From positions 558,001 to 622,000 of the forward strand of contig NZ_CP127174.1 of NCBI RefSeq assembly GCF_030273315.1: a DNA stretch of 64,000 nucleotides. The letters are read 5' to 3'. The position numbers and the translations under genes are program-made. Below are positions 40,310 through 42,624 of the stretch, piece after piece (the first letter of the stretch is position 1; each line of letters begins with the position of its first letter). The notes below the pieces were generated by a model. That model saw nothing but the letters and a program-made list of their open reading frames with translations. It made no database searches and was not told the DNA's origin. Source of the DNA: Natrialbaceae archaeon AArc-T1-2. Lineage in GTDB: Archaea; Halobacteriota; Halobacteria; Halobacteriales; Natrialbaceae.

Positions 40310-40813
40310 ATGACGCTCTCCGAGGAGACACGCGACCGGTTGGCAGACGTCGTGGAGTTACAGCCGACGAAAAACGCCGAACTCCAGGAACGGTGGGGCC
40401 TAGAAAGTGGTAGCGAGGTTCATCAGTACCTCGAGGACGAACTCGGGGAGTACTACTTCCGGGACGACAACAGTCTGATCCGTGCGACCGCGGAGGCGGC
40501 AGAACTCGTCGACGTCGAACCCGGCGTCGAGGGCGAGGAAGGCGGCCCGCCGTCCCGGATTCGCGTTCCCGAGTTGCAGGCACGGATCGTCGACGTGCTC
40601 GCAGAGCCGGACGAAGAGTCAGAAAGCGTCGTCTCGGTCCTCCACGGGCTCCGTGAGGCTTCCGACTACGACGTCGACCCCTCGAGCGACGACGTCCGCG
40701 CTGGGCTCCAGAGTCTCCGTCGGAAAGGCGTCGTCGACGTCGAGTACCGGACGGTTCCCACGTTCAGACTTGCCGTTTCGAGCGACGAACTCGAGGTCTC
40801 GGTCTCCGAGTGA
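40310..40813 (+). CDS. DUF5797-type haloarchaeal protein
   Basis: A 167-residue soluble acidic protein. The first 65 residues (RLADVVELQPTKNAELQERW, GSEVHQYLEDELGEYYFRDD) look like a winged-helix domain, and the C-terminal half a second one (VPELQARIVDVLAEPDE; GLQSLRRKGVVDVEYR). A DNA-binding role is likely but unproven. Its TGA stop (40811-40813) is also the left flank of the miniature element. Confidence 0.8.
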   Translation: MTLSEETRDRLADVVELQPTKNAELQERWGLESGSEVHQYLEDELGEYYFRDDNSLIRATAEAAELVDVEPGVEGEEGGPPSRIRVPELQARIVDVLAEPDEESESVVSVLHGLREASDYDVDPSSDDVRAGLQSLRRKGVVDVEYRTVPTFRLAVSSDELEVSVSE

Positions 40814-40920
40814 TACTGTCGGTCATACCGACGTGCACACGGCTGGTGACAGCACGGCCAGACACACGTTCAACGGCCGGATCACCCGGACACCAGTTCA
40901 CCGGTCCATGACCGACAGTA
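40814..40920 (+). mobile_element. 107-bp miniature inverted-repeat element, copy A
   Basis: The element begins TACTGTCGGTCAT and ends ATGACCGACAGTA, 13-bp perfect terminal inverted repeats. It is flanked on both sides by TGA (40811-40813 and 40921-40923), which fits a 3-bp target duplication. It has no coding capacity. It is identical over all 107 positions to the reverse complement of copy B at 42383-42489. The parental transposase is not in the window. Confidence 0.85.
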
Positions 40921-40947
40921 TGAGTTCCCCGATCGAACCGGACGGTC

Positions 40948-42291
40948 CTAGACGAGACTCGCCCCGTCGAACTCGCCGCGGCTGAACTCGACGTCCATCA
41001 ACTCGAGAATCGTCGGCGCGATGTCGAGCAAGTCGGCGTCGCCGATCGAGGCGTCGGGGTCGTCGATGAACAAGGCGGTGTCGTCGAAGCTGTGCATCCC
41101 GTTTCGTGGACCCTGCTGGAAGACGTCGCCGTCTCCCTTGAAGCCAGCTTTGAAGTCAAAGCCGTTCGTCGGGATCGCGACGAGGTCGGGTGCGATCTCG
41201 TCGTGGTCGCCGCGGAAGGCGTCTTCGCGTTCGACGATGCGGTCGACGACCTGGCGACCGTCCGGCCCCTCGAGTTCGAGGAGCTCGGAGGCGAGCTGTT
41301 CACGAACCGCGTCGTACTCGTCTTCGGAGACGGAGCCACGCGGCTCGCGACCCTCGAGGTTGAGGTAGAACCGGCCGGGAATAAACGAGTACGCACGGGT
41401 GTCGTCGGTGATGTCGTTCAGCTCTTCGGGATCGTCGGTCTCGAACGAGAGCCACCCTTCCTCGCGGAGCCACTGGTTGAAGTGGACCTCGTAGTCCAGA
41501 CTGGTAAAGCCGTGATCGGAGGCGACGACCAGAGTGACGTCTTCGGGTAAGGCCTCGCGCAGGCGACCGACGTAGTCGTCGAGTTTGCGGTAGAACTCGA
41601 GAAACTCTTCACGGTAGGCGCCGTCGTGTTCGTAGTCTCTGAACAGGAAGTGGTTGACCCGGTCGGTGGTCATGAAGACGCCGAAAAAGAGATCCCAGTC
41701 GTCCTGTTCGAAATAATGCAGGAACGCCTCGAAGCGAGCGTCGATCGTCTCGTGGGCGTCCTCGATGAACTCGGCTTTGTCCTCGCTGTGACCGAGTTTC
41801 GGGTCGACGTCGATCCGGTAGTCGATCGACTCGAGGTAGTCGCGGACGTCGTCGGGATAGGCGGCCTTGTCCAGCTCTGGCGAGAGAAAGCCCGAGACCA
41901 TTCGCTGGACGTTTCGCTGTGGCGGGAACGTGACGGGGACGTTCATCACGGTCGCACGACGGTCTGCCTCCGTTACCCGGTCCCAGACCCGATCGGCCTG
42001 CACTTCCCGGCCCATCGGGACGTACGTGTCGTAGGTGTCGATCTCGCGGTCCTGGAAGCCGTAGACGCCCGTCTCGCCAGGGTTCATTCCCGTCGTCAGG
42101 GCAGGCCAGCAGGCACTGGATTCGGGCGGTACGATACTCGAGATCTCGCCGGCGGCTCCGTCATCGGCGAGCGCAGCGAAGTTGGGAAACTCCTCGGGAT
42201 GCTCCGTGAGGAGACTGTACGGTACACCGTCGATCCCGATGAACGCGACACGAGGATCGTCGTCGCCCCGAAGTCGGTCGAACAGACCCAT
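40948..42291 (-). CDS. alkaline-phosphatase-superfamily phosphodiesterase
   Basis: A 447-residue type I phosphodiesterase/nucleotide pyrophosphatase-like enzyme. VAFIGIDGVPYSLL starts the metal-binding core; the nucleophile Thr/Ser lies in ACWPALTTGMNPGETGVYGF; VVASDHGFTS and the late GMHSFDDTALFI give further metal ligands. Such proteins hydrolyse phosphodiesters or phosphonates, or act on glycans; the substrate is unknown. It is the only gene between two identical inverted miniature elements. ATG 42291 is set by a TATA box 25 bp upstream; the longer frame upstream is non-coding. Confidence 0.88.
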   Translation of the reverse strand: MGLFDRLRGDDDPRVAFIGIDGVPYSLLTEHPEEFPNFAALADDGAAGEISSIVPPESSACWPALTTGMNPGETGVYGFQDREIDTYDTYVPMGREVQADRVWDRVTEADRRATVMNVPVTFPPQRNVQRMVSGFLSPELDKAAYPDDVRDYLESIDYRIDVDPKLGHSEDKAEFIEDAHETIDARFEAFLHYFEQDDWDLFFGVFMTTDRVNHFLFRDYEHDGAYREEFLEFYRKLDDYVGRLREALPEDVTLVVASDHGFTSLDYEVHFNQWLREEGWLSFETDDPEELNDITDDTRAYSFIPGRFYLNLEGREPRGSVSEDEYDAVREQLASELLELEGPDGRQVVDRIVEREDAFRGDHDEIAPDLVAIPTNGFDFKAGFKGDGDVFQQGPRNGMHSFDDTALFIDDPDASIGDADLLDIAPTILELMDVEFSRGEFDGASLV

Positions 42292-42310
42292 GGGCGGGGG
42301 TAGTTCGACC

Positions 42311-42320
42311 GGATATAAGA
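42311..42320 (-). promoter_or_regulatory. TATA box for the phosphodiesterase gene
   Basis: Minus-strand TCTTATATCC is centred about 25 bp before ATG 42291, the leaderless spacing. It lies inside the segment bounded by the two miniature elements, so the gene would keep its own promoter if that segment moved or inverted. Confidence 0.6.
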
Positions 42321-42382
42321 AGGTTCGTCTCGAGACACTGTTTTCGAGAATCGGCAGCGATTCCAAGGAGCGTCGGGGTTCA

Positions 42383-42489
42383 TACTGTCGGTCATGGACC
42401 GGTGAACTGGTGTCCGGGTGATCCGGCCGTTGAACGTGTGTCTGGCCGTGCTGTCACCAGCCGTGTGCACGTCGGTATGACCGACAGTA
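42383..42489 (-). mobile_element. 107-bp miniature inverted-repeat element, copy B
   Basis: Exact reverse complement of copy A at 40814-40920, with the same 13-bp terminal repeats. On the minus strand it is also flanked by TGA on both sides (plus-strand TCA at 42380-42382 and 42490-42492). The outer TGA is the stop codon of the small minus-strand gene that follows. Confidence 0.85.
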
Positions 42490-42624
42490 TCAGTCTCGAC
42501 GACCGTTCGGCTCGTCGGGATCGAAGTTGACCGGGACAACAGTGAGGTGGGCGATGCCGACGTCGGTATCGGGCGCGCTCGAGGTCGGCTCCGAGCGGGG
42601 AGTGGCGGTGTGGTCGGCTGCCAT
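42490..42624 (-). CDS. small hypothetical protein
   Basis: A 44-residue product, MAADHTATPRSEPTSSAPDT... ending VVPVNFDPDEPNGRRD. Codon use is haloarchaeal and AATCTTATCC, about 30 bp upstream on the minus strand, could be its TATA box; a longer frame from an ATG 48 bp upstream is possible. Its TGA stop coincides with the target duplication of miniature element copy B, so insertion left the stop intact. Function is unknown. Confidence 0.55.
   Translation of the reverse strand: MAADHTATPRSEPTSSAPDTDVGIAHLTVVPVNFDPDEPNGRRD

Follow-up and report, generated by a model that had tools for sequence, protein, structure and literature searches.

Two identical inverted 107-bp repeats around a haloarchaeal phosphodiesterase gene, interpreted as insertions of a MITE with ends shared across much of Halobacteriales

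Among published elements, MITEs and SMRs of Haloquadratum walsbyi come closest to those described here (PMC3119063). The ITRs of the Haloquadratum HqIRS MITE families were matched to known transposons, and mobile Haloquadratum MITEs are also described for which the genome lacks a functional partner transposase (PMC3119063). SMR-A of H. walsbyi measures about 110 bp, has prominent ITRs, reaches up to 54 copies per genome and is not known to have a related transposase (PMC3119063). SMRs are described there as making no target duplication and as preferring the near-terminal palindromes of IS605-type elements and PATEs (PMC3119063).

We analyzed a pair of inverted repeats in Natrialbaceae archaeon AArc-T1-2, located within a stretch of 64,000 nucleotides (contig NZ_CP127174.1, positions 558,001 to 622,000), hereafter the window. 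The features at the pair, in window positions, are as follows.

40310..40813, + strand: DUF5797 gene (167 aa; profile match 1-162 of 163), whose stop codon is the site of copy 1
40811..40813: TGA stop codon native to the DUF5797 gene, serving also as the left target-site duplication of copy 1
40814..40920, + strand: MITE copy 1 (107 bp), its terminal inverted repeats (TIRs) 13 bp long: TACTGTCGGTCAT / ATGACCGACAGTA
40921..40923: TGA, right target-site duplication of copy 1
40948..42291, − strand: type I phosphodiesterase / nucleotide pyrophosphatase (Pfam Phosphodiest), a core gene
about 42313..42321, − strand: TATA-like box of the phosphodiesterase gene, with neighboring sequence conserved in relatives
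42380..42382: TCA on the + strand (TGA on the − strand), inner target-site duplication of copy 2
42383..42489, − strand: MITE copy 2, 107 bp, same sequence as copy 1 in the opposite orientation
42490..42492, − strand: native stop codon of the small gene (TGA on −, TCA on +), which also forms the outer target-site duplication of copy 2
42490..42624, − strand: conserved small gene, ~44 aa (...VVPxNFDP...RRD), whose stop codon is the site of copy 2

The original prediction had described a perfect inverted identity over 107 bp, 13-bp terminal inverted repeats, TGA at both flanks and a single complete gene with its own TATA box between the copies, and all of this was borne out. All 107 positions of 40814-40920 agree with the reverse complement of 42383-42489, and chance alone is far too weak to account for such a pair. 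The 13-bp ends of both units are exact, the TGA flanks hold in the orientation of the element and are target-site duplications coinciding with stop codons, and the phosphodiesterase gene is the one complete gene in the 1.46 kb that separates the copies. Since the Pfam DUF5797 match reaches 162 of 163 profile positions, the triplet at 40811-40813 is the native end of that gene.

The HqIRS MITEs are like the 107-bp element in being short and non-coding, with TIRs, target duplications, many copies and a need for a transposase in trans (PMC3119063). Unlike the HqIRS families with their ITRs tied to known transposons, the 107-bp MITE had no same-ended transposon among our findings. SMR-A resembles it in size, ITRs, high copy number and the lack of a known related transposase (PMC3119063). 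Membership of the 107-bp unit in SMR-A was nevertheless rejected, because SMRs, in that description, make no target duplication, whereas clear 3-bp TNA duplications accompany the unit, which lies between ordinary genes and often on stop codons. Targeting of IS605 or PATE palindromes was not seen at the two window copies either, which occupy the stop codons of the DUF5797 gene and the small gene; by gene prediction, 35 of the 36 copies in the genome are intergenic.

Querying the genome (G000, 3.36 Mb in 3 contigs) with the 107-bp unit returned 38 matches, every one on the chromosome contig. Complete copies with both ends amount to 36 distinct elements (37 listed, one of them twice). Seventeen copies, those of the window included, form a young group with 92% or more identity to the window pair, and most of the others show 72-85% identity across most of their length. 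The sister species (G001) and other haloarchaea carry more diverged copies, about 70% identical in G001. A pattern scan of public genomes for exact-ended units of ~98-107 bp recovered two MAGs and Halobacteriales archaeon YIM A00010, the latter with such units in most of 48 stretches. The plasmid collection contained no match to the 107-bp unit or to the 167-bp unit introduced below, Haloquadratum plasmid PL47 was without such an element, and viral contigs were without units of the 107-bp type, matches to the bipartite end pattern there giving no TNA-flanked pairs. A search for further copies had been suggested with the original prediction, and the copies found here and elsewhere among haloarchaea support its proposal of a miniature, non-coding, recently inserted element that needs a transposase in trans.

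The preference for intergenic positions, together with a folding far better than that of shuffled sequences owing to the TIRs (z of −4.1 as RNA and −4.8 as DNA), would also suit non-mobile regulatory or structural elements (e.g. REP/BIME-like) whose identity is kept by selection. We consider such a role very unlikely, as the copies occupy every gene-orientation context, divergent included, and the ends of the family are invariant across species while the interiors vary. Moreover, the 107-bp unit matched no Rfam family, terminator and promoter scans of it were empty, with no terminator-like site, and the TNA duplications are a mark of transposition.

These duplications were assessed across the family. 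Among the 31 TNA-flanked elements of this genome, 27 have identical flanking triplets, where the base frequencies of N predict 35% (nominal p 3e-9); a few copies have mismatched flanks. For TNA-flanked elements of other genomes, a few of which lie in duplicated surroundings and are thus not independent, the figure is 50 of 54 against 45% expected (nominal p 1e-13). Outside the 107-bp family, identical triplets flank 54 of 82 short elements, and all 54 are TNA. The 107-bp unit moves by transposition with a 3-bp TNA duplication. A 3-bp TNA target duplication and short TIRs are features of IS5 (IS1031 group) and PIF-Harbinger Tourist-like MITEs, and the 107-bp MITE shares both. TNA duplications are typical of IS5/PIF-Harbinger-like enzymes, and this general knowledge suggests, by analogy, an enzyme of that class for the 107-bp MITE. 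At the DDE_Tnp_1 loci of three genomes (G000, G061 and G150), no IS5-type transposase with the same ends was seen.

An empty site was available for comparison at the right (copy 2) position. A ~44-aa protein (MA...AHPTVVPTNFDP...RRD) is encoded directly upstream of the phosphodiesterase gene in 21 relatives; it had no match in Pfam or NCBIfam when queried as a 58-aa version with a longer start. In relatives the site is unoccupied: the small gene of the sister species, for example, ends in ...CGGGACTGA and is followed directly by spacer without a MITE, so that ...CGTCGGGACTGA continues into the spacer where the window has ...CGTCGAGACTGA and then the MITE. Insertion into TGA or TAA duplicates the stop codon, and therefore the neighboring gene survives. 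At both window insertions the second TGA rebuilds the stop. The conserved promoter region of the phosphodiesterase gene lies between copy 2 and the gene; the insertion thus leaves the promoter intact and, copy 2 being upstream of it, the phosphodiesterase gene survives too.

More generally, landing on a TGA or TAA stop codon would allow the duplication to rebuild the stop and spare the neighboring gene. Using a simple gene caller, which overlooks small genes, the one at copy 2 among them, we found 12 of 36 insertions in this genome and 15 of 63 in others on a predicted stop codon (27 of 99 together), compared with 14% of the intergenic TNA triplets of the window (45 of 315). The excess over this window background has a nominal p of 0.003 for this genome, 0.03 for the others and 0.0006 for the pooled set. 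TNA targeting combined with selection against gene damage may be enough as an explanation, because every one of the four TNA triplets reads as a stop codon on one of the two strands (TGA and TAA directly, TCA and TTA as their complements).

The same outer ends recur well beyond the 107-bp family. The outer end TNATACTGTCGGWC is present in 152 of 392 genomes sampled from the order Halobacteriales and in 59 of 95 genera, counts in which, for genomes with only one or two matches, some are chance occurrences in coding sequence; read in reverse as a control, the pattern was nearly absent. The consensus of 65 clusters of distinct ends consists of TACTGTCGG, a part fixed by the search itself, then W-C-R-K-A, then GTGAA at positions 20-24. 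Many unrelated short elements terminate in TACTGTCGG plus GTGAA near position 20. In the AArc-T1-2 genome, two further MITE families with these outer ends and TNA flanks comprise six 167-bp elements and at least three of ~79 bp (L139-L143; L145-L147), and in another genome (G306) there are 112 half-sites, mainly from a 79-bp element. Bipartite ends on unrelated interiors are the trace expected when a single transposase serves many MITEs in trans.

Several further observations were made on these elements. One 167-bp MITE spans both ends of the chromosome contig (G000:C1 3080683-3080812 and 1-37; L155/L156), and the contig is therefore circular. YIM A00010 (G061/G415) carries an unusually heavy MITE load, with about 350-460 half-sites in a 6-Mb genome, and at one of its loci (L082:3978-4024) shows tandem 23-bp repeats of duplication plus end. 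Nested MITEs, one within another, were seen at L209, L210 and L275, the last of which also holds a second family with inverted ends resembling GTAGCGTTTGCAA.

The 107-bp units thus are short and non-coding, have TIRs, are present in 36 complete copies and show a 3-bp TNA duplication as well as one empty site in relatives. In our assessment, both are very likely copies of a MITE, a non-autonomous DNA transposon mobilized by a trans-acting transposase of the DDE type, which reads the bipartite ends and cuts with a 3-bp stagger at TNA. Such an enzyme would recognize TACTGTCGG plus GTGAA around positions 20-24.

Within this MITE reading, the identity of the two window copies has its own history. 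The pair has a private base: at alignment column 22 both carry C, against A in the other 15 young copies. One copy therefore probably derives from the other, or conversion equalized both. Under the first course one copy would have seeded the other by a short-range hop. Gene conversion, rather than such recent copying, would fit the absence of the column-22 C from the other 15 young copies and the proximity of the two, 1.46 kb apart. The shared base, however, is equally predicted by a short-range hop, another identical young pair sits 2.25 Mb apart, and similarity among young copies does not drop with distance. We regard conversion as quite possible, if somewhat improbable.

The original prediction had further proposed that the gene segment between the copies might flip by recombination or be mobilized by a transposase in trans. 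The phosphodiesterase gene was found in 40 of the 41 relatives searched and is single-copy in this genome and in nearly all relatives; in 21 of 21 relatives with both genes, it has the same strand and order relative to the upstream small gene as in the window. This core gene has kept its ancestral orientation. Identical, inverted copies at this distance could in principle act as an invertible switch, recombination between them flipping the 1.46-kb phosphodiesterase segment, and a past inversion would leave the flank bases unchanged, since both duplications read TGA in element orientation and a swap would be invisible. The constant orientation relative to the small gene nevertheless marks the present state as ancestral, the segment contains the promoter, so that it is not obvious how a flip would switch the gene, and some 36 dispersed family copies account for the pair without a switch. 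Nothing pointed to a flip: inversion of the segment is not supported, and we assign a switch a very low probability.

Identical ends read by one transposase might likewise be used jointly, making the pair a composite transposon able to carry the phosphodiesterase gene. However, the two copies carry separate duplications, and their outer flanks differ (TGA versus TCA); therefore the pair and the gene were not inserted as one composite, which refutes the idea for the present arrangement. With the gene itself a conserved single-copy core gene, we regard mobilization as a unit as exceedingly improbable. The bracketing of the phosphodiesterase gene by the two copies is incidental, and the window pair represents ordinary insertions from a well-defined MITE family.

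A full-length parent IS with the same ends, another expectation raised at the outset, was sought and not found. No autonomous element with exactly these ends was present among the listed half-sites or loci of ten genomes, or at 30 DDE_Tnp_1 loci; at the DDE_Tnp_1 loci of G000, G061 and G150, no such ends flanked a transposase. Exact-end scans of the AArc-T1-2 genome, the YIM A00010 loci and single ends in G000 and other genomes revealed no transposase enclosed by these ends, and these end sequences were not found in an archaeal context in the literature. A repeated IS5-like element of the AArc-T1-2 genome was rejected as the parent for its different ends and 8-bp duplications. A 1034-bp unit (L207:1601-2634, G187:C29) was rejected as well: it is really a 71-bp MITE split by an inserted stretch that carries a type IV pilin-like gene. 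A single TGA duplication flanks this whole unit, and its pilin stretch matches Haloarcula plasmids.

More speculatively, and with considerable doubt, we suggest that a Halobacteriales-wide set of orphan MITEs of about 70-210 bp, with unrelated interiors and common bipartite ends, might be served by one transposase, possibly host-encoded or with divergent ends, and might persist since TNA targeting lets its members land on stop codons and rebuild them. The points of some interest are the ends shared across the order and the missing transposase. The tempting reading of an invertible or mobile phosphodiesterase cassette is replaced by a testable one, in which MITEs across much of Halobacteriales have their ends in common. 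Here the TNA duplication turns stop codons into tolerant landing sites, and the bipartite end consensus offers a direct handle on the transposase. The main use of these findings lies in annotation and in the understanding of haloarchaeal genome plasticity.
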